Of a stretch of 64,000 nt of DNA, positions 4,747-64,000 are shown piece after piece (within the stretch, counting starts at the first letter, position 1; each line of letters begins with the position of its first letter). The DNA is from Alphaproteobacteria bacterium. GTDB lineage: Bacteria; Pseudomonadota; Gammaproteobacteria; Burkholderiales; Burkholderiaceae_C. Location: the NCBI GenBank assembly GCA_030054175.1, contig JASGCM010000008.1, positions 1-64,000 of the forward strand. Direction: 5' to 3'. Under the pieces are notes generated by a model that made no database searches, had not been told where the DNA came from, and saw only the letters and a program-made list of their open reading frames with translations. Position numbers and translations under genes: made by a program.

Positions 4747-5314
4747 ACTCGGGCGCCGCTTTGGTCGCAGGCATAGCCTGGCCATTTCGTCAGCTGCAGA
4801 GGCCATTCGGGCGTTGGTAGCCAATTTCCCTGCTTTTGAGCGGGAACTGGTGTCCACTGGCGAGCGCGGCGTCGGATACCGCGTGCTGGCCGGCCGTGAG
4901 GCAATGACGTTGGATCGCCTGCACGAGCCAACGGGGCAAAACCGCATCACGATTGCACCGGTGGTCTCTGGCGCGGGTGGCAATGGCCTCGGTCAGATAT
5001 TGCTCGGCGCAGCCTTGCTGGCTGTGGCCTGGTGGAACCCGCTGGGCTGGGCTGCGTCGGGCGCGTTTTTGTCCCAGGCGACGCTTTATTCGGTGGGTAC
5101 CGCCATGATTCTTGGGGGTGTGGCGCAGATGATCGCCCCCACGCCCAAGGCCACCGAGCCCTCGGAGCGGCCTGAGAACAAGCCCAGCTACAGCTTCAAT
5201 GGCGCGGTCAACACGACCGCTCAGGGGCATCCTGTGCCTGTTGGGTATGGGCGGCTAATTGTTGGCTCGGCCGTGATCAGCGCCGGAATCGACGTGGACG
5301 AGATTGCTGCATGA
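4721..5314 (+). CDS. Tail assembly protein I-like
   Basis: A 197-residue gpI-family tail-tip assembly protein. The start at MVTVILLGELGRRFGRR was chosen by alignment with MATILLLGELGRRFGRR in prophage 2 (56606-57214). The N-terminal part is a compact ubiquitin-like region. The middle has a hydrophobic Gly/Ala-rich segment (near GWAASGAFLSQATLYSVG) that could be membrane-active or buried. The C-terminal part is conserved (GAVNTTAQGHPVPVGYGRL). It overlaps the J gene by four bases. Confidence 0.87.
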   Translation: MVTVILLGELGRRFGRRHSLAISSAAEAIRALVANFPAFERELVSTGERGVGYRVLAGREAMTLDRLHEPTGQNRITIAPVVSGAGGNGLGQILLGAALLAVAWWNPLGWAASGAFLSQATLYSVGTAMILGGVAQMIAPTPKATEPSERPENKPSYSFNGAVNTTAQGHPVPVGYGRLIVGSAVISAGIDVDEIAA

Positions 5315-8300
5315 CCAAGCTCATCATTGGTGCTGGCGGTGGCGGTAAAGGTGGTGGAGGGAGCGCCCGTGTGGCGCAAGAGGCCCCCGACAGCTTGCGC
5401 TCCAAAGCCTATGCGCGGGTGGTTGACCTCATCTCCGAGGGTGAGATTGAAGGGTTGGTCGATGGCCTTCAGTCGGTCTACCTGGACGACACGCCCATCC
5501 AGAACGCTGACGGCACTGCCAACTTCTCAGGCATCACTCTGGAGACCCGCAACGGCAGCCAGCAGCAAAGCTATGTGCCAGGGTTCTCCTCTGTTGAGAA
5601 CGAGGTAGTCGTCGGCGTAGAGGTCAAAGCCAGTCAGTCAATCGTGCGGTCCATCACTGATCCGGATGTGGATGCTGTCCGCATCAAGGTGAGCGTGCCG
5701 CAGCTCACGAACCAAGACACGACCAACGGCGATCTGAACGGGAGCTCGGTCAACTTCGCCATTGATCGGCAGGTCAATGGCGGTGGCTTCGTTGAGATCG
5801 TCAATGACACGATCTCCGGCAAGACCACCACCAAGTACCAGCGCAGCTACTACGTGCCGCTCACCGGCAGTGGCCCTTGGGAAATCCGGGTGCGTCGAAT
5901 TACTTCGGACTCCACATCCAGCGCTGTTCAGAACAAGACGTTCTTCGACTCGTACACGGAGGTCATTGAGAGCAAGCTGAGGTATCCCAACAGCGCCCTG
6001 GTGGCACTGCGTGTGGATGCCTCGCAGTTTTCCAACATTCCACGGCGCAGCTATGACATGAAGCTGCTACGGGTGCGGGTCCCCGTGAATTACGACCCCA
6101 TCACCCGGGCCTACAGTGGGGTGTGGAACGGAACCTTCAAGATCGCCTGGACCGATAACCCTGCCTGGTGCTTTTTTGATCTGGTCACCAGCACCCGCTA
6201 CGGCCTGGGTGGGTATATCCCCGAGGCCCAGGTCGACAAGTGGGCGCTCTACCGGGTAGCCCAGTATTGCGATCAACTGGTACCCAATGGCCTGGTCGGA
6301 TTTGAGCCTCGCTTTACTTGCAACCTGTATCTCCAGACTCGGGAGCAAGCCTACAAGGTCGTGCAGGACATGGCCTCGATCTTTAGAGGCATGGTGTACT
6401 GGTCTGGCGGAGCCATCACGGTGACGCAAGATGCGCCCGCTGATCCGGTCTACCAGTTCGCCCCCAGCAACGTGGTTGAAGGCGAGTTTGCTTACCAAGG
6501 GTCTTCTGCCAAAGCGCGCCACACCGTGGCCTTGGTCACCTGGAATGATCCTGAAGACTTTTACCGCCAGAAGGTGGAGTACGTTGAGGACGCCACGGGC
6601 ATTGCGCGCTACGGCATTGTGCAAAGTGAGGTGGTGGCGCTTGGCTGCACCTCCAGGGGACAGGCGTACCGCGTGGGCAAATGGCTCTTGTACTCCGAGC
6701 AGTCGGAATCCGAGATCGTCACCTTCCGCACGGGACTGGAGGGCGCTGTGGTACGCCCAGGCGATGTCATCAAAGTGGCTGACCCAGTCCGGGGTGGTAT
6801 GCGGCTTGGGGGGCGGGTCGCCGCTGCATCTGCCAGCACGGTCACCTTGGATCAAGACCTTCCGGCGGATCTTCCCTGGCGCTTGTCTGTGATATTGCCT
6901 ACGGGGGCGATTGAAGAGCGCTTGGTAGGGCCGATTTCGGGACGGACCTTGACGGTGACCATCCCCTTTAGCGCGTCACCGCAGCCAGGTGCTATTTGGG
7001 TGCTGTCATCCTCGATCATTGAGCCTCAGCTCTTTCGGGTGGTTGCGGTTGCCGAGCGTGATCCCGGTGTGCATGAGGTCACCGCGCTGGCGCACAACCC
7101 AAGCAAATTCGATGCAATCGAAAAAGGGCTGGCGTTACAACATCGCTCGATCACGGTGCTCTCGGATATGCCGCCGGCACCGACCGGCCTTGGCGTCCAG
7201 GAGAGCCTTTATCGGGTGAAAGATCAGGCGCAAGTTCTGGTGCAGGTTTCATGGAATGAGGTGCAGACCGCAGTCGCTTACCGGTTGTCCTACCGTGTGG
7301 CCGGCGGCAACTTTGTCAGTCTGCCGCTCACCAGCGCCAATTACGTCGAAATCCGCGATGCGCAGGAGGGGGCTTATGAATTCAGCCTTCGTGCCATAGG
7401 CATCACCCGCAAGGAGAGCGTGCCTGCAACTTACAGCGCCACGGTGCTGGGCAAGACGCTGCCGCCTTCGGATGTCACGGGCTTCCTGGTTCAGCGCCGG
7501 GTCTCCGATCTGCTGATTACCTGGGATGAAGTCCAAGATGCTGACCTCGCTGGCTACGAGGTCCGTGTGGGTTCTGGCTGGGACAACGGCCAGCTTGTCG
7601 CTAAAACCGCTGGCACGCAGATGGTCCATGACCAAAGCGCTGCCGGGCTGTACCCGTATCACATCCGAGCCTACGACACCTCAGGAAACTACAGCGCCCA
7701 TGTGACGACCTTTGTCCTGAGCCTGCAAGCGCCCTCGACGGTTCGCCAGTTCGATGTGGTCCAGTCAGCCAACCGGCTGGAGTTTCGCTGGCAGCCCAAT
7801 CCTGAGCCTGAAGTCGTTGGGTATGAACTCCGTGAGGGCGCGGCCTGGGATGCGTCTCTCTTTGTCGCCGAGGTCAAGTCCACCAGCTACACGCTGCCCT
7901 CGGGGTTTGATGGCGAGCGCAAATTCTGGATCAAGGCCATCGCATCGCCCGGCATCTACGGCGACGCACCGACCTTCGTGTCGACCGTGGTTGCCCAACC
8001 GCAAAACGCCAACCTGATTCTCGAGCGCGATGAGCAGGCGCTCGGCTTTCCGGGTACCAAGCACTTTGCCTCGGTCGTATCTGTAAACGGTCACAACGTA
8101 TTGCGCATGAGCACGGGGGCGCAGATAGCCGAGTACTTGTTTGAAGTCGATCTTGTCTCGCCTGTTCGCGCTCAGAACACACTGCTCAACAGTCTCGGGG
8201 CCTCGGTAGATGACCGAACCACGTGGCTCGAGGCCAATTTCCCTTGGAGCAGTGATGCGGCCAGGCGCCAGTGGGCCTACGACGGTGCAATCGCCAACGT

Positions 8301-8811
8301 GGATGCCCGGTTCCAAATCGCCAGGGAAGATGCACTGCAAGCCGGTGAAATCTACGGTTGGCGTCTTAACGGTTCAACAACCGGACTGGGTAGTCCGGTC
8401 TCCAGCCAGGCGGCAGGCGTGGCCTATGCAGCCGGCCGATATGGCGACGGACTCCTCGTCAAGGACACCACCCGTGTGGCCTGGACGGTGAGCATTCCAC
8501 CGGTGTTCCATACCTCCTTTTGGTTCATCCCTGCTGAGGTCACAACTTGCGTGATCTGGGTTGCAGCCGGATCCACAGGGCTGCTTTTGGTGGGCTATGA
8601 CGCTGCTACATCGGTCTTTTTCTTGGAAGACCAACTGTCCCGACAAGTGACTGTCCCGTTCGCCGTGTCGATGACCGATCGTATTTGCATTGGTGTCTGC
8701 CAGACTGCCTCCGAGCGGCGGCTCTTCGTTGGCCGCATGGGCGCAGATGTCGAGTCAGCAAGCGCAGCCTTAGCCCCGATCGGATCGTTTACCAGTTTGC
8801 GCTTGTACTAG
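5311..8811 (+). CDS. Host-specificity protein J-like tail-tip protein
   Basis: A 1166-residue tail-tip protein of the gpJ/TipJ family. It opens with a glycine-rich stretch (IIGAGGGGKGGGG) and the family signature LRSKAYARVVDLISEGEIEG. The centre has the TipJ body (YRQKVEYVED, SEQSESEIVTF), followed by about three fibronectin-III-like units from residue 620 onward. J proteins form the central tip fibre and usually decide receptor choice. The copy at 57211-60747 is collinear. A 74-residue block (7738-7959) is identical in both proteins although the DNA differs at many synonymous sites. A strong terminator follows. Confidence 0.92.
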   Translation: MTKLIIGAGGGGKGGGGSARVAQEAPDSLRSKAYARVVDLISEGEIEGLVDGLQSVYLDDTPIQNADGTANFSGITLETRNGSQQQSYVPGFSSVENEVVVGVEVKASQSIVRSITDPDVDAVRIKVSVPQLTNQDTTNGDLNGSSVNFAIDRQVNGGGFVEIVNDTISGKTTTKYQRSYYVPLTGSGPWEIRVRRITSDSTSSAVQNKTFFDSYTEVIESKLRYPNSALVALRVDASQFSNIPRRSYDMKLLRVRVPVNYDPITRAYSGVWNGTFKIAWTDNPAWCFFDLVTSTRYGLGGYIPEAQVDKWALYRVAQYCDQLVPNGLVGFEPRFTCNLYLQTREQAYKVVQDMASIFRGMVYWSGGAITVTQDAPADPVYQFAPSNVVEGEFAYQGSSAKARHTVALVTWNDPEDFYRQKVEYVEDATGIARYGIVQSEVVALGCTSRGQAYRVGKWLLYSEQSESEIVTFRTGLEGAVVRPGDVIKVADPVRGGMRLGGRVAAASASTVTLDQDLPADLPWRLSVILPTGAIEERLVGPISGRTLTVTIPFSASPQPGAIWVLSSSIIEPQLFRVVAVAERDPGVHEVTALAHNPSKFDAIEKGLALQHRSITVLSDMPPAPTGLGVQESLYRVKDQAQVLVQVSWNEVQTAVAYRLSYRVAGGNFVSLPLTSANYVEIRDAQEGAYEFSLRAIGITRKESVPATYSATVLGKTLPPSDVTGFLVQRRVSDLLITWDEVQDADLAGYEVRVGSGWDNGQLVAKTAGTQMVHDQSAAGLYPYHIRAYDTSGNYSAHVTTFVLSLQAPSTVRQFDVVQSANRLEFRWQPNPEPEVVGYELREGAAWDASLFVAEVKSTSYTLPSGFDGERKFWIKAIASPGIYGDAPTFVSTVVAQPQNANLILERDEQALGFPGTKHFASVVSVNGHNVLRMSTGAQIAEYLFEVDLVSPVRAQNTLLNSLGASVDDRTTWLEANFPWSSDAARRQWAYDGAIANVDARFQIAREDALQAGEIYGWRLNGSTTGLGSPVSSQAAGVAYAAGRYGDGLLVKDTTRVAWTVSIPPVFHTSFWFIPAEVTTCVIWVAAGSTGLLLVGYDAATSVFFLEDQLSRQVTVPFAVSMTDRICIGVCQTASERRLFVGRMGADVESASAALAPIGSFTSLRLY

Positions 8812-8839
8812 ATCCCAGTTTTTCAACTTATCCCCAACC

Positions 8840-8878
8840 GTGGCGCTGGTCTCGAAAGAGTCAGCGCCACTTTCTTTT
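8840..8878 (+). terminator. Intrinsic terminator after J-like gene
   Basis: A perfect nine-base stem (GTGGCGCTG / CAGCGCCAC) with a 13-base loop is followed by TTTCTTTT. It lies between the J-like gene and the next tail gene, so it probably cuts or attenuates tail transcription before the fibre genes. I see no equivalent hairpin after J in prophage 2. Confidence 0.8.
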
Positions 8879-8892
8879 AGCGAGGACTTTTC

Positions 8893-9339
8893 ATGATCGA
8901 CGAATCCATGCAGCTTCATGGCGCAATGACACTCATCCTTCGCCGCGCAAGCGGTGAAGTCGAGACGGTCCACAAGGACAACATCATCGTCAACGTTGGC
9001 TTTGATTTCATTGCCGATGCCATTGGCAAAGCCGCCAGCCGCCCCGCGACGATGGGGTTTATCGCGCTTGGCACAGGTACCACGGCGGCAGCAGCGACCC
9101 AGTCAGCACTGGTGACGGAAATTGACCGCAATGCGGCAACCTATGCGCACACCGCAGGTACAAAGACGTTCACTTTCACCGCAGACTTCTTGGCAGGGGA
9201 CAGCACCGGAGCCTTGACTGAGGCTGGCGTCTTCAATGCTTCGACCGGGGGAATCATGCTCGATCGTGTGGTGTTCCCCGTGGTCAACAAGGGTGCGGAT
9301 GACAGCCTGACCGCGGTCTTCACCTTCACGATGAGCTGA
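8893..9339 (+). CDS. Conserved tail-associated structural protein (prophage 1)
   Basis: A 148-residue protein with no family I can name. It is rich in small residues and beta-prone (IALGTGTTAAAATQ, LDRVVFPVVNKGADDSLTAVFTF). It lies between J and the fibre genes and has a same-length, near-identical partner at 60790-61236. Position and conservation suggest a small virion component, perhaps an adaptor between tail tip and fibres; that role is inference. Confidence 0.75.
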   Translation: MIDESMQLHGAMTLILRRASGEVETVHKDNIIVNVGFDFIADAIGKAASRPATMGFIALGTGTTAAAATQSALVTEIDRNAATYAHTAGTKTFTFTADFLAGDSTGALTEAGVFNASTGGIMLDRVVFPVVNKGADDSLTAVFTFTMS

Positions 9340-9344
9340 TTGTC

Positions 9345-10697
9345 ATGCCCGATACGGTGACAGTCAGCGATACCCAGGGCGCAAGGTACACCTGGGCTTC
9401 TGCTGGCTTTACATGGTCGAGCGCGAGCGCCGGGAAGAACTGGACCACGGCCTATCCCGCCGTCTACAACGTTGCGGTGGCGGTGAGCTTGGCTATCGTC
9501 GAGGCAACTAGACGACAGTCGGTCAAGCGCACCGGTGAAGGGCTTGGCTTTGCCGAGATGCTAGCCAAGCAGTTGACTCTGCGTGAATCAGAAGCAGTCG
9601 GGTTCGGAGAAACCTATTCAGACCTGATCGCGTTCGTCCTTCGTTGGATCGAAACGATAGCTGTAACCGAGGTCGCCGGGAAAGCCGCCCGCAAAGAAAT
9701 TAAGGAGGCTTTCCAAGCATCCGACTACCTCACAAGGGTGCTGACAAAAACTTCGAAGGAGAACTTGGCCTGGACTGACGGTCTGCGTCAGAGCGGTGTG
9801 AAGCGCCTGGCCGAAAGCCTTCCATTTTTGGAGTCGCCCCAACGAGGTGTCACCAAGAGCGCCTTCGAAGCCTTTGGGCTAGGGGATGACTTGGACCGTC
9901 TAATCACCAAGCGCATTGCTGAGGCAGTCGCGTTTGCCGAGACCTACACCGATCTGATCGCTTTCATCTTGCGCATCAGCGAAAGTTTGGGTGTCAGTGA
10001 TCTTGGTGCCAAGCAGGTCCGAAAACCTTTTGCGGAAGCTTTCAGCAGCACAGATAAGGCAGCGCGACAGTCGATTAAGCGAGTCGCAGAGGCCGTCGCT
10101 TGGGGGGAGGCGTTGGGTCGTACGGTGGCCTACCGTCGCAATCTGACGGAGAGTCTCTCGGTTTCGGACGCTCTTCGAAAGGCTATGCGCCTGACCGCTC
10201 GCGAGGCATTGGCGTTGGCCGAGCAGTACCGCAGGCATGCCAACGGGGTGATCAGCGACATGATCGTCGGCACCACCGAGATTACCGAGCAAGACTTTGC
10301 TGCGATCGTCGAAGCAGGTCATCCGCCAGGCTACACCGACTTTCGGGATTTCATCCAGGGTGACTACACCTACCGGCGTGCGCTTTTCAGAGCCGTCTTG
10401 AATTCGCGCAATTCCGATCGCGGCTACATCGATGGTCTGCGCGTGACAGTGGATGTGCCTGACATCTTTGATCGAGGAACGATGCAGATCACCGACGCAG
10501 CCGCTGGCGCAGTGATCTCCTTTTCGCGCAGCTTTCGCGTGGCGCCAGAGGTAACCATGACCCACAAGGGTGGAACCGCAGTGGCCATCCCACGTCTTCT
10601 CGGCGCAGTCACAACGACAGGCTTTACCGCCATTCTTGAAAACAGTTCCGGCACCCGTGTGACCGGCTCCTTCACCTGGATTGCACAGGGGTACTAG
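9345..10697 (+). CDS. Tail-tip accessory protein with helical repeats and possible H-type-lectin-like C-terminus
   Basis: A 450-residue protein. The first 50 residues are aromatic and Ser-rich (YTWASAGFTWSSASAGKNW). Residues 60-290 are degenerate helical repeats around 'EAVxFAETYxDLIAFxLR' and 'ESLxVSDxxxK'. The last 90 residues have spaced features resembling an H-type lectin fold: 'FRVAPEVTMTH', 'TTTGFTAILEN' and a terminal 'TWIAQGY'. If that holds, this is a carbohydrate-binding fibre. The lectin call is tentative. Its collinear partner is at 61242-62594. Confidence 0.75.
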   Translation: MPDTVTVSDTQGARYTWASAGFTWSSASAGKNWTTAYPAVYNVAVAVSLAIVEATRRQSVKRTGEGLGFAEMLAKQLTLRESEAVGFGETYSDLIAFVLRWIETIAVTEVAGKAARKEIKEAFQASDYLTRVLTKTSKENLAWTDGLRQSGVKRLAESLPFLESPQRGVTKSAFEAFGLGDDLDRLITKRIAEAVAFAETYTDLIAFILRISESLGVSDLGAKQVRKPFAEAFSSTDKAARQSIKRVAEAVAWGEALGRTVAYRRNLTESLSVSDALRKAMRLTAREALALAEQYRRHANGVISDMIVGTTEITEQDFAAIVEAGHPPGYTDFRDFIQGDYTYRRALFRAVLNSRNSDRGYIDGLRVTVDVPDIFDRGTMQITDAAAGAVISFSRSFRVAPEVTMTHKGGTAVAIPRLLGAVTTTGFTAILENSSGTRVTGSFTWIAQGY

Positions 10698-11714
10698 ATG
10701 CAAAACTTCACCGACATACCGTCGTCCAGAACACTGTCCGATTCTCTGATCGAGATTCTGAACAACGATAAGACCGCCATTTCATGCAACAGCGGAACAA
10801 CCTTCCCGACGACCAACCTCCAGATCGGGATGCTCTGTTACCGAACAGACCAATTAAAGCTGTACCAACTGATCGGAACCAATCCCGACAACTGGCGATT
10901 CATCATGGACTTGTCCAGTGGTATCGATGCCCAGTTCGCAGCCAAGCTCAATGCGGCGTCTTACACCGCAGCCGATGTGCTGGCCAAGCTGCTGACCGTC
11001 GACGGTACTGGAACGGGGTTGGATGCCGACCTGCTCGACGGCCAGCATGCGAGCGCCTTTGCCTCGAGCACGCACAACCATAACGCCACATACCTCGGCA
11101 TTACTGCCAAAGCCGCTGACGCCGACAAACTGGACGGTTACGACTCAACTGCTTTCGTCCGGTCGGTCAATGGAGCGGCTCCCGACGCCGCTGGCAACGC
11201 GACAGTAGTCATAGATCTCTCCAGCCGCGTAGCCAAATCCGGAGACACGATGACGGGGAATCTCGTGATGTCGGGCAACGCCACCATCCGATCAGCCAGG
11301 CCGGCAGATAACGCGCGGGACACGGGTTACAAGATGTCCGACGGTCAGGACCTGGGCGAGATGAACCGCAGCAATCAGTACTACGACGACCTTGCCAGCA
11401 ACTGCAACGGCTACGTCCCAAACGGAAATTGCCAAGGCAATCCCTACTGGACACCACCCAACGGGAACTGGTGGACCTGGTACACGCTGATCGGACAAAC
11501 CGCGTGGCACAACAGTAGTTCCTATGACGGAGCGGGCGGAACCACCTACGCCTACAACCCGGTATCGGTTGGCTACAACTATGACGGGTATTACCTCGCT
11601 GCCGACGAAATCGGTGGTGGCGAATACCACCGCAACTATCGCAATTGCAACTGCGGCGCATTCAACTGCGTGACGAACTGCAACTGCAACTGCAACTGCG
11701 CATGCAATTGCTGA
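10698..11714 (+). CDS. Tail fibre protein with Cys-Asn alternating C-terminal tail (prophage 1)
   Basis: A 338-residue fibre protein. Residues 1-190 carry the fibre motifs GLDADLLDGQHASAF and ADADKLDGYDSTAFVR, which recur in phage side-fibre and baseplate proteins. From about residue 195 it becomes Tyr/Asn/Gly/Trp-rich and unlike the prophage 2 fibre. It ends in two cysteine clusters: RNCNCGAFNC and then TNCNCNCNCACNC followed directly by the stop. Alternating Asn-Cys in a virion protein is very unusual. The four genes that follow include a radical SAM/SPASM enzyme, so the tail is a candidate modification substrate. Confidence 0.9.
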   Translation: MQNFTDIPSSRTLSDSLIEILNNDKTAISCNSGTTFPTTNLQIGMLCYRTDQLKLYQLIGTNPDNWRFIMDLSSGIDAQFAAKLNAASYTAADVLAKLLTVDGTGTGLDADLLDGQHASAFASSTHNHNATYLGITAKAADADKLDGYDSTAFVRSVNGAAPDAAGNATVVIDLSSRVAKSGDTMTGNLVMSGNATIRSARPADNARDTGYKMSDGQDLGEMNRSNQYYDDLASNCNGYVPNGNCQGNPYWTPPNGNWWTWYTLIGQTAWHNSSSYDGAGGTTYAYNPVSVGYNYDGYYLAADEIGGGEYHRNYRNCNCGAFNCVTNCNCNCNCACNC

Positions 11715-11728
11715 GGGGAGACAGCACC

Positions 11729-12679
11729 ATGTTCCGTCATACCGTACCGAGTCTGTCGACCCCTGTTTTTGTCGAAGCGCTGATTGCCGAACGGCGGATC
11801 TGCCTGAAGACGTACCAAGAAATCCCAGGGCAGACCTTTACGCTCTTCAACGCTGAAAGTCCGACCACCATGGACACACGCGTGCAACGGTCTCTCAGCC
11901 TCTCGCAGTTCGTGGCCCCTAAGACGTTCCCGCCCGAGGTCTCTGGCATCTACTTCCGCCATCTGCCTTGCATGCGTCTTGAAACGCCCTACGTAGAAGG
12001 CGCGACGCTCGATGATGCGCTGGCCGGGCGCTACTTCCGCACCCGCAGTTACTCGATGATCGATCTGGATGATCCGGCCATCGGGTCGGTCGAGCGCAAG
12101 GACGCCGCCACGTGGGTGATTGGTGTCGACTACGACGGCTACGCCCGCCCCGGATTCAACGCGCTCGCCTACGAGCACTCTACCAAGATGCATCCCTTGC
12201 GCGCCGCCCGTCAGATCGGGGCGCCCGCATGCCTGTTTGTTTACCAGCCTTTTGCATCGGTGCCATTCACGGAATGCTCGATGACGCTCAAGTTCAACCA
12301 GGGGCTTGGCTTCTACTCGAACGTTGACGCCTGGCTGCCGCGGGCAGATTTCGAATATTTGGGCGACCTGGCAGCAGCGCTACCCAGCCTGCGACGTACC
12401 GACGGTCAGACCGGCGCCATTCCGATCGCCCCGGACGGGTGGGCGACGGTTGGGCTGGAGATGGTCGATGGCACGGGCGAACTGATCAACCAGGACACCA
12501 CCCTCCACCTCGAGGCGACCGGGGGTTACCTGCCCCAGCAGCGGGTGGCCTGCACGGCGGGGCTGGCTCAGGTGCGTGTCGGCGCTCTCGGGCTGTCGGT
12601 CGGCGAGCACTTCCGGGTCAAGGCAGGCTTTTACAGCTACACCGGGCTGATCGATCTGAATTTCGAGGTGACACCGTGA
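11729..12679 (+). CDS. Unknown protein of the fibre-tail cassette, Ig-like C-terminus
   Basis: A 316-residue protein that I do not recognise. The start at MFRHTVPSL has a GAGGGGAG ribosome site six bases upstream; earlier in-frame codons only read the fibre's Cys-repeat DNA out of frame (Gln-Leu repeats) and are rejected. The first 230 residues are mixed alpha/beta with several aromatics. The last 85 residues (DGWATVGLEMVDGTGELINQ… to LIDLNFEV) look like a beta-sandwich, Ig-like domain. It starts 14 bases after the fibre and its stop overlaps the oxygenase start, so it belongs to the same transcription unit. It could be a chaperone, a second fibre subunit or a substrate-presenting protein. 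Confidence 0.8.
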   Translation: MFRHTVPSLSTPVFVEALIAERRICLKTYQEIPGQTFTLFNAESPTTMDTRVQRSLSLSQFVAPKTFPPEVSGIYFRHLPCMRLETPYVEGATLDDALAGRYFRTRSYSMIDLDDPAIGSVERKDAATWVIGVDYDGYARPGFNALAYEHSTKMHPLRAARQIGAPACLFVYQPFASVPFTECSMTLKFNQGLGFYSNVDAWLPRADFEYLGDLAAALPSLRRTDGQTGAIPIAPDGWATVGLEMVDGTGELINQDTTLHLEATGGYLPQQRVACTAGLAQVRVGALGLSVGEHFRVKAGFYSYTGLIDLNFEVTP

Positions 12680-13374
12680 TCCAGCCCATGGTCATCGCCC
12701 AGATGTGGGCCACGCCGGTAGCGCAGCAGCAGGTCGATCTTCCGGAACCCATGCGCGAGGCCCTGATCGAGGTGCTCAAGCGCAAGGACGCGCAGCGTGG
12801 CGACCTGGCCACGCGTTCCCCTGACTTCCACGCCTTCATGAAGGACAAGGGGTTCTACGCCACCTCCCACTACAACCTGTTCGACGAAGCCGAGGAGCAT
12901 CCCGAGCGCGAGGCCATTCTGATGTTTGAGCGGGTGGCCTGCATGGCCGCCCGGGAATACCTCGCGCACGCGCTCGATCTGCGAGAGGCCCGCGAGGTTC
13001 AACTGTCAGGCCGGTGCTTCGGCAACGTGCAGCGCACAGGGGATCGGACGCTTCCGCACTACCACCAGGGGGTGGATTTCGTGCTGGTGCACTACCTCAC
13101 GGTCGGCCATGGCGCGGACGCTGAGGCAGGCTCCACGCCACGTAACGGGCCACACGCACTGCTGCTCCTCGATCCCCGGCCGGTACCCACTTTCCCGTAT
13201 TGGGAAAAGGTTCACGCCATCCAGCCGCGCGTCGGACTGACCGTCCTAACCCCAGGCTACCTCTGGCACGAGACCAACCCATTCCGCTTTGACGGCGATC
13301 GGGTCTGCATCGTCGTCAATTTCAACGTCATCACCAACACCTACGCCGAACTGCATCGCCCGATGCGGTTCTAA
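12676..13374 (+). CDS. Putative 2-oxoglutarate/Fe(II)-dependent oxygenase
   Basis: A 232-residue protein resembling the 2OG-FeII_Oxy_5/TIGR02466 group often seen in phages. Candidate iron ligands are His128 and His130 in LPHYHQGVDFVLVHYL and His198 in YLWHETNPF. Arg209 in GDRVCIVVNF sits where the 2-oxoglutarate-binding Arg is expected. The block 'LLLLDPRP' matches the family's DPR motif. The GTG start overlaps the previous stop (GTGA); an ATG four codons later is an alternative. Such enzymes hydroxylate amino acids or other substrates, so modification of the fibre tail is a reasonable but unproven role. Confidence 0.72.
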   Translation: MIQPMVIAQMWATPVAQQQVDLPEPMREALIEVLKRKDAQRGDLATRSPDFHAFMKDKGFYATSHYNLFDEAEEHPEREAILMFERVACMAAREYLAHALDLREAREVQLSGRCFGNVQRTGDRTLPHYHQGVDFVLVHYLTVGHGADAEAGSTPRNGPHALLLLDPRPVPTFPYWEKVHAIQPRVGLTVLTPGYLWHETNPFRFDGDRVCIVVNFNVITNTYAELHRPMRF

Positions 13375-13383
13375 AGGAGCCCC

Positions 13384-13569
13384 ATGCAACGCACGATCGA
13401 AGTCGTGGAGTCGACCGACACCACGGTGGTGTTCACCGTGAGCGTCTCTGACGGCGAGCGGATCCGCAGCCGCCATACCTATCATATCGCCAAGCTCGCG
13501 CACCAGAAGCCGCAGGAGGCCTGCCGCCTGGCTTGCCCGGAGTTGTTCGGCGAAGAGGCCCAACCATGA
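13384..13569 (+). CDS. Small protein of unknown function in the radical SAM cassette
   Basis: A 61-residue protein with a beta-strand-rich start (TIEVVESTDTTVVFTVSVSDG) and two Cys near the end. It has an AAAGGAG ribosome site and overlaps the radical SAM gene by four bases (ATGA), so the two are coupled. It is shorter than a typical RiPP recognition element and I cannot assign one. A partner or peptide-recognition subunit for the radical SAM enzyme is possible but unsupported. Confidence 0.65.
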   Translation: MQRTIEVVESTDTTVVFTVSVSDGERIRSRHTYHIAKLAHQKPQEACRLACPELFGEEAQP

Positions 13570-14984
13570 AATTCACCCTGACACTCAATGGACGCAACGG
13601 CTTCCAGCGGGACGCCCATTACGACCCAATTGACTCGTCGCTGGTTTGGGCGGACACCGGCGAAGCGTTGCCCTTGCCGGCAGTCTTCCCGCGCCAGGCG
13701 CGCGAGTGGCAGCCGTTCTGGCATGCGCATCACCCCACGAACCCGGCTGGCAAATCGCGCGATATCCGGCACCTGAAGCTTCAGCTCGGGCTCAAGTGCA
13801 ACTACACCTGCCAATATTGCTCGCAGGCGCACCAGCCGCATGACCTCGATGGCCACCCGAGCGACGTCGAGCCCTTCATGGATCAGTTGCAGGGTTGGTT
13901 TGCAGGTGGCACCGACGGTCGTGGCTCGGGGGTCAAGATCGAGTTCTGGGGCGGCGAGCCCTTCGTCTACTGGAAACTGCTCAAGCCGCTGGGTGAGGCC
14001 GTTCGCGACCGCTATCCCGCAGCCGAGTTGTCGATCGTGACCAATGGGTCGCTGCTGGATGACGAGAAACTCGCCTGGGTCGAGACTTTGGATGTGGGGA
14101 TTGGACTGTCTCATGACGGCCCGGCCCAGGCGCATCGTGGCCCTGACCCCCTCGATGACCCGGCAACACTCAAGAACATCAAGCGCTGGGTGTCGCGCCG
14201 GATGCCGATCAACCGGATGAGCTTCAACACGGTGCTCCACCGGCACAACGATTCGCTCAAGGCGGTGCGCAAGTTCTTCGCTGACCGACTCGATCTGCCG
14301 GTGCAGATGATCGTTCTTGCCACTGAGGAAATCATGCTGCCATACGACACGGCTGGGCTTGCTCTCTCTTTGACCGGGCACGACCACGCGCGCTACCGAC
14401 ACCGGCTTTTCTGGGAACTGGCGACAGGCTCTGCCATGGCCGTCGGTACGCTGCGCGACAAGGTAGATGAGTTCCTTCGCTCCCAGGCTGAAAGTCGGCC
14501 GCTGGCTTCGCTAGGACAGAAGTGCGGCATGGATCGTGATGACTCGATCGCGGTCGACATGAAGGGCAACGTCACCACCTGCCAAAACATGAGCGCGCTG
14601 ACGCACCACAAGGTGGGCCACGTCGAGCAATTCGATGAGATTCGGCTGGACACCGCCTACCACTTCAGCACGCGCAGCGAATGCCCGCGCTGTCCGGTGG
14701 CGCAACTGTGCAAGGGCGCGTGCCTTTTCCTTGAAGGGCAGTTCTGGACCGCAGCCTGCGACAACGCCTTAACGCATAACCTGGCCGTGCTCGCGGCGGC
14801 GATCTATTACCAGACCCAGGGCTTGATCCTCACGCGGATCACGGCCGACGGCATCCGACGCGAAGGCATAACCTCGTTGGAGGTGATCGATCTCGGGTTC
14901 GTTGAAAGCAACGGCGACATGGCAACCGTCGCGCCACCACCGCGGTTGTCTAAGCCGTTCCCCGTGCAGGTCGTCGCCGCCTGA
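13566..14984 (+). CDS. Radical SAM enzyme with SPASM domain, candidate fibre-tail maturase
   Basis: A 472-residue radical SAM protein. The 4Fe-4S/SAM motif is CX3CX2C at Cys78, Cys82 and Cys85 (CNYTCQYC). GGEP follows at 129-132 (FWGGEPF). The C-terminal part carries a complete SPASM pattern: CX13GX4C (CGMDRDD…GNVTTC), then CX2CX5CX3C (CPRCPVAQLCKGAC), then a final Cys in TAACDN. SPASM proteins include anaerobic sulphatase maturases and RiPP enzymes that cross-link or modify Cys-containing peptides. The start at MKFTLTLNG overlaps the preceding stop. No precursor-peptide gene is seen nearby; the Cys-Asn tail of the fibre three genes upstream is the obvious candidate substrate. Confidence 0.92.
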   Translation: MKFTLTLNGRNGFQRDAHYDPIDSSLVWADTGEALPLPAVFPRQAREWQPFWHAHHPTNPAGKSRDIRHLKLQLGLKCNYTCQYCSQAHQPHDLDGHPSDVEPFMDQLQGWFAGGTDGRGSGVKIEFWGGEPFVYWKLLKPLGEAVRDRYPAAELSIVTNGSLLDDEKLAWVETLDVGIGLSHDGPAQAHRGPDPLDDPATLKNIKRWVSRRMPINRMSFNTVLHRHNDSLKAVRKFFADRLDLPVQMIVLATEEIMLPYDTAGLALSLTGHDHARYRHRLFWELATGSAMAVGTLRDKVDEFLRSQAESRPLASLGQKCGMDRDDSIAVDMKGNVTTCQNMSALTHHKVGHVEQFDEIRLDTAYHFSTRSECPRCPVAQLCKGACLFLEGQFWTAACDNALTHNLAVLAAAIYYQTQGLILTRITADGIRREGITSLEVIDLGFVESNGDMATVAPPPRLSKPFPVQVVAA

Positions 14985-15004
14985 TTTAACCCATTCCCCG
15001 TCCC

Positions 15005-15037
15005 GCCCGCCTGGTTCGCGCCAGCGCGGGCTTTTTT
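15005..15037 (+). terminator. Intrinsic terminator closing the fibre/radical SAM cassette
   Basis: The stem GCCCGC-CTGG pairs with CCAG-c-GCGGGC (one bulged C, six-base loop) and is followed by six T. It separates the radical SAM cassette from the lysis genes. Confidence 0.85.
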
Positions 15038-15053
15038 CATTTTGGAGGCCACG

Positions 15054-15353
15054 ATGACTGAAACCGAGAAAGCCGTACTCGTCGAGAACATGCTCCTCAT
15101 GCGCAAGGAGGACTTCGACGAGATGCTCAATAACGCCGCTGAGCGCGGTGCCGAACGCTGCCTTGCCCACCTGGGCCTTGAGAACGGCAGCGCCGCCAAG
15201 GACATCCGCGACCTGCGGGACCTGCTGGAGGCGTGGCGCGATGCGCGTCGCACCGCCTGGCGGACAGCCATCCGCGTGATCACGACCGGCGTGCTGGCGG
15301 TGCTTTTGGTCGGTACGGCGATCAAGCTCAAGATCATGGGAGGTTGGCAATGA
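15054..15353 (+). CDS. Small membrane protein next to endolysin, holin-like
   Basis: A 99-residue protein with a long charged, helical N-terminal part (to about residue 70) and one C-terminal membrane segment (AIRVITTGVLAVLLVGTAIKL). It resembles DUF6127-type phage proteins found beside lysis genes. It overlaps the endolysin gene by four bases. A role as accessory holin or lysis regulator is inferred from position and topology. Confidence 0.7.
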   Translation: MTETEKAVLVENMLLMRKEDFDEMLNNAAERGAERCLAHLGLENGSAAKDIRDLRDLLEAWRDARRTAWRTAIRVITTGVLAVLLVGTAIKLKIMGGWQ

Positions 15354-15826
15354 ACTTCGACGAATGCTTTGCCGCGCTCGTCGCGCATGAGGGTGACTTT
15401 GCGGACCTGGAGAACGACCCTGGCGGTAAGACCCGCTTCGGCGTGACGGAAGCCGTGGCGCGCGCTGCTGGATATAACGGCGACATGCGAGAACTGCCAT
15501 TAAGCCTGGCCAAGACCATCTACCGATCACAGTACTGGGACGCGGTACGCGGCGACGATTTACCCGACGGCGTTCGGTACTACGTGTTCGATGCGGCAGC
15601 AGCGTCCGGGGTACGGCAGTCCGTTCTCTGGCTGCAACGGGCACTTGGGGTGGCTGCTGACGGCGTCCTGGGGCCTGTGACGCTGGCAGCCGCCCATGCC
15701 GCGAACCCCGAAAGGCTCAAGGCGCGCTTGCTTGCGCAGCGACTTCGCTTCATGGCTGGACTGTCGAACTGGCCGTCGTTCTCGCGGGGCTGGAGCCGCC
15801 GCGTTGCAGACCTGTTGGAGGCATAG
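15350..15826 (+). CDS. Endolysin, glycoside hydrolase 108 family
   Basis: A 158-residue protein with the GH108 N-terminal pattern: HEGDFADLENDPGGKTRFGVT near residues 13-33, with the catalytic Glu in HEG. The C-terminal part resembles the family's peptidoglycan-binding half (LQRALGVAADGVLGPVT). It cleaves the glycan strands of the cell wall at lysis. It has no signal peptide, so it needs a holin for export. The next gene encodes a 3TM holin. Confidence 0.88.
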   Translation: MNFDECFAALVAHEGDFADLENDPGGKTRFGVTEAVARAAGYNGDMRELPLSLAKTIYRSQYWDAVRGDDLPDGVRYYVFDAAAASGVRQSVLWLQRALGVAADGVLGPVTLAAAHAANPERLKARLLAQRLRFMAGLSNWPSFSRGWSRRVADLLEA

Positions 15827-16500: not shown

Positions 16501-17319
16501 ATGATAACTAAGTCTTCAGTAATAAATGAGACTTCACGCTGGGTTATTTGGTGGCTTGAGGAGCGCAAAAAGAAGCTCAGAGAGCAGTTAAGTGAAACAA
16601 TGTCAGTGAATCCATTTTTACTTCCGATTCTTTTTGAGTTGCACGACCTCAGTTCTTTGTCCGAGCTCAACAAGTTAATTGTTGCGAGTCATCTGATGAC
16701 TGGCCATGCAACCGGTTTTGGAAAATTGATGGATGAAAAAATTCTACCAAAGGTATTTGGAACAACCAAACTTGACGCTCCGTTCCGGCGACAAAGCAAA
16801 ATATATTCAAAATCTTGTTTTGATGAAGTTGATCATATTATAAAAAGAAAAAATGGCAATCCAGATATCCTATCCCTGAAGGCAGGAAAATGGACCATTC
16901 AACTGACCATGGCTGTACAGCTGAATGCAGCTTTTCACGAAATAAAAACTAATTATGGAAGTAGTTTTGGGCAAATTGCTGTCGGTGTTTTTTATGGAAC
17001 CAAGGCTGGCTTGACTGACAAGTACGATATTCTGCGCGGGATCAATCGAGGCAAAAATCATGATGTTGTAGATTTAACAGACCAAGTTTTTGTTTACGCC
17101 GGCAGAGAGTTTTGGAGCTGGCTGAATGATGGCGAAGACCAAACTCAAGATTGGGTTATTCAGGGAATCAAGCAAGGGCTGGCGCAAGATAACTCGAGAA
17201 AAGAGTGCGGGGATCTCCTAAAGTCCTTCGAATCGACCGTAGAGGCCAAATATAGAAAGTATTTTCAACCAGGCAAAGACGTCAATTGGGAAATGCTCCT
17301 GACGGACATCAACGGCTAG
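16501..17319 (+). CDS. Putative type II restriction endonuclease
   Basis: A 272-residue protein in AT-richer DNA, just upstream of a cytosine methyltransferase on the opposite strand. It contains FLPILFELHDLSS…VASHLMTGHATGFGKLMDEKILP and 'DILSLKAGKWTIQLTMAVQLN', which I associate with PmeII-type restriction endonucleases. D/E…D…K residues in that block could form a PD-(D/E)XK site. The family name is from memory and needs a profile search; the role is well supported by the neighbouring methyltransferase. Confidence 0.65.
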   Translation: MITKSSVINETSRWVIWWLEERKKKLREQLSETMSVNPFLLPILFELHDLSSLSELNKLIVASHLMTGHATGFGKLMDEKILPKVFGTTKLDAPFRRQSKIYSKSCFDEVDHIIKRKNGNPDILSLKAGKWTIQLTMAVQLNAAFHEIKTNYGSSFGQIAVGVFYGTKAGLTDKYDILRGINRGKNHDVVDLTDQVFVYAGREFWSWLNDGEDQTQDWVIQGIKQGLAQDNSRKECGDLLKSFESTVEAKYRKYFQPGKDVNWEMLLTDING

Positions 17320-17333
17320 TTGGATGATGGAAA

Positions 17334-17840
17334 ATGCCTAACGCAAAACTATCCGCCAATAAGGCTGATTATTGGTCGAAGCGCAATCACGATACAACTT
17401 GGAAATCAATCGAGATTGAAGTTGGCATGCCAGCCCGAAAACGCGGGTATTTAACTATGCCAGAGTTCTTGGAAATATGCCGATGGAAATCGCCTCGCTC
17501 ACAGCACCAGTGTATTTTAAATCCGAAGGAATTAGTTGAAGAGGTGACGGCGATTGCTCTTGCAGCGGCCCGCGAGGAGTTGCGCATCGGGTCTTTGATA
17601 TTGCTTAAGGGAGTTTCTTGGCCAACGGCGTCAACTATCCTTCATTTTTGTCATGAAGACCCCTACCCGATTCTAGACTTTCGTGCTGTATGGTCGCTGA
17701 GGTTAGAGATGCCCAACCAGTATGACTTTGATTTTTGGTGGGCTTATACTGAAAAGTGCCGGAAGCTGGCTACTGCTGCAAAATTGACCATGCGGCAGTT
17801 AGATATGGCCTTGTGGCAGTACTCCAAAGAAAAACAATAG
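17334..17840 (+). CDS. HhH-GPD-like helix-hairpin-helix protein of the RM island
   Basis: A 168-residue protein starting 14 bases after the putative endonuclease. The segment LLKGVSWPTASTILHFCHEDPYPILDFRAVW resembles a helix-hairpin-helix plus Asp region of the HhH-GPD glycosylase fold ('GV…ASAIL.F….YPI.D.RA'). The rest is not recognised. It may be a DNA-repair glycosylase-like or DNA-binding accessory to the restriction system. It ends 17 bases from the convergent methyltransferase gene. Confidence 0.6.
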   Translation: MPNAKLSANKADYWSKRNHDTTWKSIEIEVGMPARKRGYLTMPEFLEICRWKSPRSQHQCILNPKELVEEVTAIALAAAREELRIGSLILLKGVSWPTASTILHFCHEDPYPILDFRAVWSLRLEMPNQYDFDFWWAYTEKCRKLATAAKLTMRQLDMALWQYSKEKQ

Positions 17841-17857
17841 CTTATTCCGCAATAAAT

Positions 17858-19123
17858 TTACGATGAAGGACTGAATGAAAGCTCCATTTGATCCTCATCA
17901 ATGGCGTCGCCATCATCGTCGTAATAAGAATGATCCCCGGCTAGAGCTTCGCCGTTTTTCCAAAATTGTCTTGTTCTAACATGGGGACGAAGATGGATAA
18001 CCTGATGCATCGGAAGTGTTTCGTTCGGCTTTTCTGATGCCTTAATTCTGGTCATTAAATTAGCGATTACTGTTCCCGCAAAATAGCCGAGAATACAGGG
18101 CACTGCGTTTCCCACTTGTCTAAATTTCTCAGTTGCACTACCTGTAAATTTCCAGTCAGTTGGAAATCCTTGAATTGCAGCTGCCTCACCTACTGTAATT
18201 GCTCGAAGCTCTTTCGGGTGACACATGCTTGTCCCCGCGTGATTAGGCATGGTTACTACCGTCGGAGACGGAAACGCGAATGAAAGCTTTCTCCAATAGG
18301 CACTTCTCCCCCCTTTCAGGTACCAACTTTTCCCCATAGACTCCTTTTGGATTTCTTCCGGGAGACTTCGCCAATTTCCGCCTTCTGGAATCATGGAGAG
18401 GTACTTGAGTTTCCTCGGACTGAAGTTCATAACCTCTGGGCAGGGATCCGAAAAGCCAGCGCCTATGGCATCGCCAAGTGTTTTGAACGGCGGAAGATTG
18501 TCAGTAGGCCTGTTGCTATACATCGGCCCTGGGAAGTGGGCCATTAGTCCATGGCGGTTTCCAATAAAAATCAACCTCTCCCTAATTTGCGGCGCTCCAT
18601 AATTGACTGCGTTAACAACATAGCAGTCGACTCTGTATCCAATTTGCTCGAATTTCTCGAAGATTAGATTAATCAGGGAGCCTGGCTCAGTAAGAGCTCG
18701 ATCAACCTTTTTTCCAATTGCATTCTTCTTTGGGACTATGGGCATGGAAAGCAGTCCGCGCACGTTTTCCATTACGAAAGCATGTGGGCGTATTTCGTTG
18801 ATCACTCTTATAAACTCGAAGACAAGCTGCCCTCGCCGATCTTCCACACCTTTCCGATTTCCAAAAACACTAAAGGCCTGGCAAGGTGGTCCACCAATTA
18901 CAAGGGGTGGGTCGTCATTAGTCGAAATGCCCGCTCCCTGTAGGATTTCGCCGCCGGTGAGCTCGGCGATTGATTGATCGAATACCTTAAGGGTTGGACG
19001 ATTCAACTTAATCGTTGCGACAGCAGCCGCATCGATTTCTACGCATGCGGCCGTCTCAAACCCGGCTCGCTCAAAGCCAAGGTCAAGCCCCATAGCTCCG
19101 CTGAAAAGAGAAATGACTTTCAT
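17858..19123 (-). CDS. DNA (cytosine-5-)-methyltransferase
   Basis: A 421-residue C5-cytosine methyltransferase. Motif I is LFSGAMGLDLGFE, motif IV GGPPCQAFS with catalytic Cys81, motif VI ENV at 119-121, motif VIII QIRERLIFIGNR, and motifs IX-X include ITVGEAAAIQGFP and RQVGNAVP. It transfers methyl from SAM to C5 of cytosine, protecting DNA from the partner endonuclease. The ATG with AGGAAAA eight bases upstream is preferred; a TTG six codons earlier would overlap the preceding small gene. Confidence 0.93.
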   Translation of the reverse strand: MKVISLFSGAMGLDLGFERAGFETAACVEIDAAAVATIKLNRPTLKVFDQSIAELTGGEILQGAGISTNDDPPLVIGGPPCQAFSVFGNRKGVEDRRGQLVFEFIRVINEIRPHAFVMENVRGLLSMPIVPKKNAIGKKVDRALTEPGSLINLIFEKFEQIGYRVDCYVVNAVNYGAPQIRERLIFIGNRHGLMAHFPGPMYSNRPTDNLPPFKTLGDAIGAGFSDPCPEVMNFSPRKLKYLSMIPEGGNWRSLPEEIQKESMGKSWYLKGGRSAYWRKLSFAFPSPTVVTMPNHAGTSMCHPKELRAITVGEAAAIQGFPTDWKFTGSATEKFRQVGNAVPCILGYFAGTVIANLMTRIKASEKPNETLPMHQVIHLRPHVRTRQFWKNGEALAGDHSYYDDDGDAIDEDQMELSFSPSS

Positions 19124-19137
19124 CGGACTTTTCCTAA

Positions 19138-62634: not shown

Positions 62635-63570
62635 ATGCAAAACTTCACCGACATACCGTCGTCGCGCACGCTGTCTGACTCGCTGATTGAGATCCTGAAC
62701 AACGACAAGACGGCGATCTCCTGCAACAGTGGCACTACGTTTCCAACGACCAACCAGCAAGTGGGCATGCTGTGCTACCGCACGGATCAGCTCAAGCTCT
62801 ATCAGTTGATCGGCACCAACCCAGACAACTGGCGCTTCATCATGGATCTGGCCAGTGGGATCGACGCCCAGTTTGCGGCCAAGCTCAATGCCGCTGCGTA
62901 CACCGCTGCCGATGTGCTCGCCAAGCTGCTTACATTGGATGGCGCTGGCTCCGGGCTCGATGCCGACCTGCTCGACGGCCAGCACGCCAGCGCTTTTGCA
63001 TCGGCTTCACACAACCACAACTCGGCCTATCTGGGCATCAGCGCCAAGGCGACGGACGCAGACCGGCTGGACGGCTACGACGCCTCGGCCTTCGTCCGCT
63101 CAGTCAATGGCGGCGGACCCGATGCCAACGGCAATGCCACCGTCAATATCGATTTGTCAGGACGCGTAGCACGTACGGGTGACAGCATGAGTGGGCGCCT
63201 GACACTGCCCAGCCAGACCGTACAGAGCACCTCGCCCACGATCGACTTTTACGACACAGACCAGGGCAGCACCCGCTACCTGCACGTCAACAGCAACCTG
63301 ATGGGATTTCTGAAAACTGACGGCAACTGGGACATGTACATGAACAACGGCGGCTCCATGTGGACCGCCAACTATGGCTGGCTGCACGACTACTTCTTCA
63401 GGCAAGTGGCCAATTGCGGTGGTACTGGTTACGCCATCAATTGCTATGGCAGCGGCAACATCACCAGTCGGCATGACTACGAGTTGATTGATGAAGGTGG
63501 ACAGGTGAGGTTGCGCACGGTGAACGTGCTGACCAATTGCAACTGCAATTGCAACTGCTGTGGCTGCTGA
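62635..63570 (+). CDS. Tail fibre protein with Cys-Asn alternating C-terminal tail (prophage 2)
   Basis: A 311-residue fibre. The first 185 or so residues are nearly the same as in prophage 1 (MQNFTDIPSSRTLSDSLIEI; GLDADLLDGQHASAF). From about residue 195 the sequence is unrelated (TIDFYDTDQGSTRYLHVNSN; MYMNNGGSMWTANYGWLHDY). It nevertheless ends TNCNCNCNCCGC before the stop, with extra Cys at VANCGGTGYAINC. Keeping the Cys-Asn tail after the tip domain has been exchanged argues that the tail has its own function. Confidence 0.9.
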   Translation: MQNFTDIPSSRTLSDSLIEILNNDKTAISCNSGTTFPTTNQQVGMLCYRTDQLKLYQLIGTNPDNWRFIMDLASGIDAQFAAKLNAAAYTAADVLAKLLTLDGAGSGLDADLLDGQHASAFASASHNHNSAYLGISAKATDADRLDGYDASAFVRSVNGGGPDANGNATVNIDLSGRVARTGDSMSGRLTLPSQTVQSTSPTIDFYDTDQGSTRYLHVNSNLMGFLKTDGNWDMYMNNGGSMWTANYGWLHDYFFRQVANCGGTGYAINCYGSGNITSRHDYELIDEGGQVRLRTVNVLTNCNCNCNCCGC

Positions 63571-63583
63571 AAGGGATCTGCTC

Positions 63584-64000
63584 ATGAAAACCATCCGCAT
63601 GCCTTATCCGCTGCAAAGCCCTGCGAGCACAACAAACGCGCACCGAACCAACCTCATTCGCATTCAGAAGGTGGAGGCCGATTTCTTGATCGAACACCTC
63701 ACGCCCGCTTTTGAGCAAGCCTTGGATGAAAGTGGCCGGGTCATTGATGAGTCGTCTGCGCCCATGTTGGTCGGCCATCAAAGTGCATTTGTCCACGCTG
63801 TCATAGTAAGTGACCTGCAAAACCTCGCGCAAGATCCCGGCAATGCCCACACCGTCTGGCTCTTTGCACTGCGTCGAGGGGAGAGCGAGCCGGTGTGGAT
63901 CAACAAGTTCGCGCAAACTGCCTTGTCTAAAGAAGGGTTTCGGCAGTACTGGAACCAGCAGCCCATGCTGGTCTTGGCCCAGCTTTGGATTCCACCCTTG
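63584..64000 (+). CDS. Unknown protein after the fibre gene, cut by window edge
   Basis: A frame open from ATG (with AAGGGATC upstream) to the last base, 139 residues without a stop. It reads MKTIRMPYPLQSPASTTNAHRTNLIRIQ… and 'VWLFALRRGESEPVWINKFAQTALSKEGFRQYWNQQPM'. It is not similar to the gene in the same position in prophage 1. It is probably the first gene of prophage 2's own post-fibre cassette. Confidence 0.65.
   Translation, partial: MKTIRMPYPLQSPASTTNAHRTNLIRIQKVEADFLIEHLTPAFEQALDESGRVIDESSAPMLVGHQSAFVHAVIVSDLQNLAQDPGNAHTVWLFALRRGESEPVWINKFAQTALSKEGFRQYWNQQPMLVLAQLWIPPL

Follow-up and report, generated by a model that had tools for sequence, protein, structure and literature searches.

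A tail fibre and its companion genes

The stretch of DNA analysed here, all 64,000 nucleotides of which we call the window, comprises positions 1 to 64,000 of contig JASGCM010000008.1 in assembly GCA_030054175.1 (contig C17 of a 3.1-Mb genome), and it contains a lambda-like prophage tail module in which a tape-measure protein (28-2976), J and fibre genes lead up to an endolysin (15350-15826). Between J and the lysis genes lies a tail fibre whose C-terminal end, YRNCNCGAFNCVTNCNCNCNCACNC, alternates Asn and Cys (NC), followed by genes for a protein that we call U, a 2-oxoglutarate (2OG)-Fe(II) oxygenase, a 61-residue protein and a radical S-adenosylmethionine (SAM)/SPASM enzyme (Table 1). We propose that these genes form a phage-borne maturation cassette whose enzymes modify the NC tract of a virion fibre, a reading to which we give a probability of roughly 0.77.

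An earlier note on this DNA had described a fibre with an alternating Cys-Asn tail and four co-directional genes behind it, spaced by at most 14 bases, and both descriptions hold: the fibre matches tail-fibre PHROGs as well as the T4 long-tail-fibre chain (E 0.0044), and the junctions from fibre to U, oxygenase, 61-residue protein and radical SAM enzyme measure +14, -4, +9 and -4 bases, negative values being overlaps. The protein that it had called oxygenase-like passes the gathering cut-off of PF13759 (42 versus 27 bits), and the cysteine pattern that it had read as complete is so, with the CX3CX2C residues C78, C82 and C85 and seven SPASM cysteines (C320, C339, C373, C376, C382, C386 and C398) invariant in all 31 aligned enzymes. 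Profile searches on the radical SAM protein came out divided, in that the SPASM model TIGR04085 is passed (35.7 versus 27 bits) and the Pfam Radical_SAM cut-off is narrowly missed (29.1 versus 29.5 bits). The terminator placed at the end of the cassette stands as the top-ranked hairpin between 8800 and 15400, in a scan that by itself is weak evidence because it returned 9 sites versus 5.1 (sd 2.4) in shuffled sequence.

Table 1. Features of the window: the cassette of the NC-tailed fibre, followed by its surroundings and the second tail module
Feature	Position	Strand	Basis
Tail fibre with Asn-Cys tail (putative substrate)	10698..11714	+	tail-fibre PHROGs, best E 4.2e-10; C-terminal NC tract
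NC-rich C-terminal tract of the fibre	11623..11711 (limits approximate)	+	sequence
U protein, partner gene adjoining the fibre	11729..12679	+	C-terminal part resembles Ig-like domains; AlphaFold2 (AF2) model, predicted local distance difference test (pLDDT) 85
2OG-Fe(II) oxygenase, GTG start	12676..13374	+	PF13759 E 1.3e-10; phrog_81 E 4.2e-17
61-residue protein	13384..13569	+	BLAST cluster in 10/96 cassettes
Radical SAM/SPASM enzyme	13566..14984	+	phrog_1802 E 5.7e-55; TIGR04085; AF2 pLDDT 90, best PDB fold 5why
Terminator-like hairpin and T run	15013..15032	+	top-ranked such hairpin in 8800-15400
Central tail fibre J-like protein (context)	5311..8811	+	phrog_31 central tail fiber J, 1016 bits
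Tail-fibre-like protein upstream of the NC fibre (context)	9345..10697	+	weak phrog_14469 tail fiber, E 0.0075
Second NC-tailed fibre, different distal domain, in another tail module	62635..63570	+	ends TNCNCNCNCCGC
Gene following the second NC fibre (start only), U-type place	63584..64000, cut by window end	+	position

The genome holds five such cassettes (two on contig C17, one each on C23, C11 and C30). DNA encoding NCNCNC occurs at 13 partly overlapping places in this genome, all of them inside the fibre genes of the five cassettes, versus none for the reversed pattern, which indicates that the NC tails are not a product of chance. The window also contains the start of a second cassette, which the earlier note had not mentioned: the ORF (open reading frame) at 61242-62594 equals that at 9345-10697 in length and place, the two NC fibres share 80% identity across 209 stem residues and then diverge, and both carry the NC tail. 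The radical SAM gene of this cassette falls beyond the window, with a match at C17:66674-67894, and the gene beginning at 63584 has no Pfam match for the part inside the window.

Co-occurrence of NC tails and one radical SAM family

The earlier note had linked NC-ended fibres with the radical SAM gene and had named a failure to co-occur as grounds for refutation; surveys from both directions strongly bear the link out. Starting from the enzyme, profile scans gave at least 578 relatives among at least 600 stretches of viral contigs and 96 relatives among 134 stretches of genome contigs, with 80 loci kept from each source; the 176 enzyme ORFs in 159 kept loci formed 124 clusters at 90% identity, 100 of which have at least 5 kb of upstream sequence. 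An ORF with a CxCxCxC tail lies upstream on the same strand in 78 of these 100 non-redundant entries, and 10 more pass a lax test for short ends, the short NC end being convincing by eye in eight loci (L089, L091, L097, L106, L109, L130, L146 and L169). Applied to the 7 kb downstream on the same strand, the same tests found a tail in none of 75 entries, and no CxCxCxC ORF of at least 40 aa was present in a negative control of three phage loci whose radical SAM matches are of another kind (L322, L323 and L324).

Starting from the tail, an (NC)4 DNA pattern returned at least 120 viral stretches, 119 of which were examined; among the matches listed, to which the tail-first counts refer, 88 encode a tail no more than 11 residues from a stop, and wherever such a terminal tail is followed by at least 3.5 kb the enzyme family comes next on the same strand in 55 of 58 cases (40 of 42 when only distinct tails are counted), 54 of the 55 enzymes scoring at least 150 bits. 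Two of the three misses, L218 and L243, are an identical simple-sequence stretch. The third, L299, has after its tail a gene in the place of U and then three genes, one of them desaturase-like. L277 has the same order, and its enzyme begins 5.3 kb past the tail; the L299 stretch extends 3.6 kb past its tail, and by eye it is a cut-off cassette. The 31 stretches without a counted terminal tail yielded an enzyme match in 3, one of which (L295) really has a slightly longer NC tail. In the mixed, dereplicated set of enzyme-first and tail-first loci the count is 105 of 129.

Of 250 genomes surveyed in the family, 4 contain the radical SAM enzyme and 14 an NC-type DNA pattern. An NC tail is present in three of the enzyme genomes, once fused to a Hint domain, and none was recognised in the fourth (L321). 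When the three longest ORFs over each match were checked in 13 stretches from 11 pattern-only genomes, 11 stretches showed no tail near a stop and two were ambiguous: in L317 the pattern lies one residue from the end of a 57-aa ORF and overlaps a frame that reads as QL, and in L315 a perfect repeat breaks off 26 residues short of a stop. Plasmids gave no match at E 1e-20, and neither of two queries, a small NC-tail protein and a U protein, returned anything from phage records.

Three observations concern the edges of this association. Several enzyme relatives, some of them on Variovorax and Ramlibacter contigs, have no recognised NC tail (L164, L166, L168, L172, L175, L178, L179, L180 and L182) and are possibly an outgroup with other substrates. 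Small NC-tailed ORFs of 67-82 aa stand near divergent radical SAM genes in L195, L201, L235 and L260, with four matches in L195 and three in L235. Five loci (L105, L230, L253, L287 and L304) present a row of three small NC-tailed ORFs (93-167 aa) followed by one radical SAM gene.

The Asn-Cys rule and the modifying enzymes

The tails use mixed codons (AAC 280, AAT 182, TGC 298, TGT 164), a finding that places the NC tail under selection at the protein level and rules out a DNA-repeat artefact as its origin. Alternation of x-Cys extends to about 10 repeats, and the residue between tract cysteines is Asn in 429, Ala in 105 and Asp in 81 of 651 positions. The preference also reaches beyond the tract: in 109 tail proteins, Asn precedes 386 of the 455 cysteines that lie outside the tract and within 150 residues of it, and none of the 21 that lie farther away, as compared with 132 of 4538 (3%) in long ORFs of the same loci and 2 of 146 in the main oxygenase group. 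Cysteines of the fibre body follow Asn in the majority in 74 of the 89 tail proteins that have such cysteines. A constraint on which residue stands ahead of Cys speaks for an enzyme that acts on the dipeptide; simple disulfides or metal sites would have no need of it. The putative substrates are mostly the size of structural proteins (about 70 to 1084 aa) and not short precursor peptides with a leader. Single-linkage clustering of the fibre bodies gave 8 clusters, one of 116 members that is probably chained through NC-rich sequence, and we therefore refrain from counting independent fibre families.

All 31 aligned enzymes match phrog_1802, and all match maturase models for ribosomally synthesised and post-translationally modified peptides (RiPPs) at E 1e-5 or better, with the best values for geopeptide and PapB. 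The AF2 model of the window enzyme has as its best Foldseek match 5why/5wgg (E 2.4e-11), entries titled for thioether bond formation and showing an enzyme that we take to be CteB; further fold matches are ChlB and the anaerobic sulfatase maturase anSME, then TigE, SuiB and SkfB among others. As regards a possible RiPP recognition element (RRE), the N-terminal region is modelled mainly as strands, without a winged helix in the DSSP line. The RiPP-maturase matches and the closest fold favour formation of a Cys thioether, and the available text of PMC9413430 reports that PapB takes Cys-Xn-Asp with n = 0-6, directly adjacent Cys and Asp included. Even so, thioether chemistry on the NC pairs is a tentative assignment that we would place a little short of even odds.

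The genes between fibre and enzyme vary. Their calls come from a greedy script that over-extended some starts, so that the counts over the 96 dereplicated tailed cassettes are approximate: 78 have a U-type gene, which in 74 comes directly behind the tail; 46 have an oxygenase-type gene, 11 of them at least two; and 13 have a second radical SAM gene, of which both scanned members pass Pfam Radical_SAM. U-type genes comprise three BLAST clusters (U0, U6 and U7) grouped by place and not by shown homology; the PDB matches of the U protein are weak and Ig-like, and it also matches uncharacterised viral proteins. The names of the oxygenase clusters derive from scans of a few members. The other four cassettes of the genome contain nine oxygenase candidates, of which three pass a Pfam cut-off, four fall below it and two have no match; one oxygenase-like group lacks any Pfam match in the four members scanned and retains HxD...H...R in six of six aligned.

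A further variable element is a Hint-like sequence directly behind the NC tract, found in Achromobacter phages JWF and 2-1, whose records carry phrog_1802 and have no oxygenase annotated between fibre and enzyme. Similar fusions occur in L073, L080, L088, L121-L124, L181 and L320, and L265 appears from its sequence to be another. The Hint profile PF05203 is passed by phage 2-1 (46.6 versus a cut-off of 32.1) and L320 (44.5), six of the other eight scanned fusions stay under the Pfam cut-off, two (L080 and L122) have no match, and the domain of JWF is taken from the record's annotation. By motif a Hint domain is indicated in 11 of 96 cassettes, one of which, L304, we do not count; the window's own fibres have none.

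Two side observations may be recorded. Pairs of related, desaturase-like genes, unusual in a phage tail region, lie inside NC cassettes at L277 8362-9879 and L300 4888-6395, and the one member scanned matches fatty-acid desaturases (PF00487). Beyond the lysis genes, at 16501-19141, the window encodes a restriction endonuclease resembling EcoO109I (PF14511, E 2.6e-05) together with a C5 DNA methylase (PF00145, E 2e-61), likely a restriction-modification pair.

A proposed fibre-tip maturation, its alternatives and its nearest relatives

That the tip is matured after translation, as the earlier note had suggested, draws on the co-occurrence, the NC-dipeptide rule and the variety of modifying enzymes, and a dedicated enzymatic modification of the fibre tip is well supported. 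What the analysis shows is the content and order of the genes, their co-occurrence with the tails, the NC rule, the predicted fold and the cofactor motifs; that the enzyme modifies the tract, through which bond, with what hydroxylation or Hint cleavage, and to what effect on receptor binding or stability, we infer. In the mechanism that we favour, the distal domain and C-terminal tail of the fibre carry Asn-Cys pairs, less often Ala-Cys or Asp-Cys, on which the radical SAM/SPASM enzyme would act before or during virion assembly, most likely joining each Cys sulfur to a carbon of a neighbouring residue as a thioether, repeatedly along the tract. The oxygenases, where present, would most likely hydroxylate Asn, Asp or other residues in the tract region, and in some phages the Hint-like domain sits where it could remove everything behind the tract and leave the finished tail as the end of the protein. 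The product would be a rigid or hardened tip, resistant to proteases and redox conditions or active towards the receptor, that serves adsorption.

Several results weigh against this proposal. In the surveys, 12 of the 100 enzyme-first entries have no NC end by script (one scored so, L092, ends ACNCAGGACDCG), two of the ten lax-test passes are the second ORF of L091 and the spurious-looking L177, and opposite-strand control ORFs anywhere in the loci give 8 and 9 of 100, part of them complementary readings of the tails; on contig C23 the radical SAM frame is short (~330 aa) although the NC tail is intact. As to the rule, 15 of the 89 tail proteins with body cysteines lack an NC majority, and Asn precedes 17 of 147 cysteines in the second radical SAM group and 19 of 199 in U0 proteins, both above the 3% background. 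The proteins that obey it are also mutually related and rich in Asn (8.9%), and the counts are therefore not independent events. With regard to the reaction, the window enzyme reaches no NCBIfam reaction-level cut-off among the 25 models listed, its scores being 57.6 versus 340 for the PapB ranthipeptide maturase (NF047865), 34.6 versus 425 for the SCIFF maturase (TIGR03974) and 41.3 versus 349.45 for the anaerobic sulfatase maturase (TIGR03942), and since the fold scores of 5why, ChlB, anSME and TigE are close as well, any assignment of a bond type is tentative.

Other reactions may be considered. The enzyme might epimerise every second residue and so build an alternating D/L tail of the kind known from polytheonamide-type peptides, a beta-helix able to enter membranes; the long x-Cys alternation, the recurrence of Asn, Ala and Asp as acceptor residues and the presence of EpeE among the structural matches speak for it. 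We nevertheless regard it as unlikely, for EpeE (E 1.8e-6) ranks well below 5why and anSME (E 4.7e-10), and a full SPASM domain together with a dependence on Cys that holds even at isolated NC pairs off the tail better suits a Cys-based reaction. Somewhat less probable still is an anSME-like oxidation of tail cysteines to formylglycine or a similar aldehyde, which would give a reactive tip that bonds to the host surface. The sulfatase motif is of the CxPxR type, and none is seen around the NC pairs of the listed tails; oxidation would leave the Asn before Cys unexplained, and the window enzyme scores better with RiPP-maturase models than with the sulfatase-maturase model. In favour of this reading, anSME has a close fold and, of all solved structures, aligns in sequence over the greatest length (4k36, profile 75-391, E 2e-16).

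A third account dispenses with modification of the fibre and takes the NC tract for a metal-binding or disulfide tip, by analogy with the iron-binding HxH sites in gp37 of T4, and the enzymes for cargo or for proteins that act elsewhere. Fibre tips of T4 and marine phages have such sites (available text of PMC11705849), and CxC repeats might likewise give stacked ligands where the fibre is a trimer; we think it improbable, given that it accounts neither for the near-obligate two-way pairing with a single enzyme family nor for Asn being favoured ahead of Cys outside the tract. That the targets are a small molecule, DNA or a host protein, and that the enzymes adjoin the fibre by chance, as might be argued from the DNA modification suggested for a different radical SAM module of Thermus phages (available text of PMC11437467) and from the PHROGs placement of oxygenase family phrog_81 under moron and auxiliary genes, is hardly credible in view of the NC sequence rule and of a linkage that spans many phage contigs, host records and differing fibre ends.

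On balance we lean, with less assurance than for the cassette itself, towards the broader view that tailed phages widely build RiPP-like, enzyme-modified receptor-binding tips through an Asn-Cys code in the distal domain and tail, which exchangeable radical SAM enzymes, oxygenases and Hint domains convert into new covalent chemistry, that a parallel system in other phages pairs (His-x-Asp)n proteins with a different radical SAM enzyme, and that both belong to a new class of virion maturation. Virion maturation is known to rely on proteolysis, capsid cross-linking and chaperone-aided folding. The earlier note knew of no virion-maturation system of this kind, and we likewise found no description of NC tails or of radical SAM maturation of phage fibres among the open-access papers listed, as judged by title, opening of the abstract or available text, including that of PMC10783043, PMC3556154, PMC9062424, PMC7824862, PMC11705849, PMC9413430 and PMC11437467 (subscription journals and preprints lay outside this scope). 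If true, radical-based modification of a structure that touches the host would add a new layer to phage biology, bear on host range and on the resistance of adhesion tips to the environment, and supply peptide and protein engineering with naturally occurring enzymes able to process large proteins at their ends.

Thermus phage Cumys (L323, PQ109079.1) encodes a long His/Asp-repeat protein (6940-7971) directly upstream of a different radical SAM gene (7980-9230), in a module for which DNA modification has been proposed (available text of PMC11437467). In a scan of viral contigs for the HxD pattern (58 stretches), six of seven ORFs with at least 20 HxD units directly precede a Cumys-type radical SAM enzyme, the seventh (L353) runs to the end of its stretch, and the other 51 loci have no such enzyme.

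Among known systems, T4 gp37-type HxH tips resemble the NC fibres in having alternating ligand-like residues in a receptor-binding fibre, and differ in using His where Cys with Asn stands here; the available text of PMC11705849 mentions no modifying enzyme. Hint/hedgehog-intein autoprocessing domains are recognisable in phage 2-1 and L320 through PF05203, the probable nucleophile standing where the NC tract ends; what differs is that these domains follow the tail of a phage fibre as a fusion, with a radical SAM gene alongside, and occur in some cassettes only. RiPP maturases (PapB ranthipeptide, SCIFF, geopeptide and nif11 models) share the core, the SPASM cysteines, the nearest profiles and folds and a Cys-rich repetitive substrate encoded beside the enzyme; in contrast to them, the substrate here would be the end of proteins with ORFs of about 70 to 1,000 residues and not a short peptide, and no leader-cleaving enzyme was noticed. 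A further relative, the family phrog_1802, is described as a phage radical SAM domain-containing protein with neither substrate nor function nor any link to NC tails, and it is for this family that our results suggest a function.

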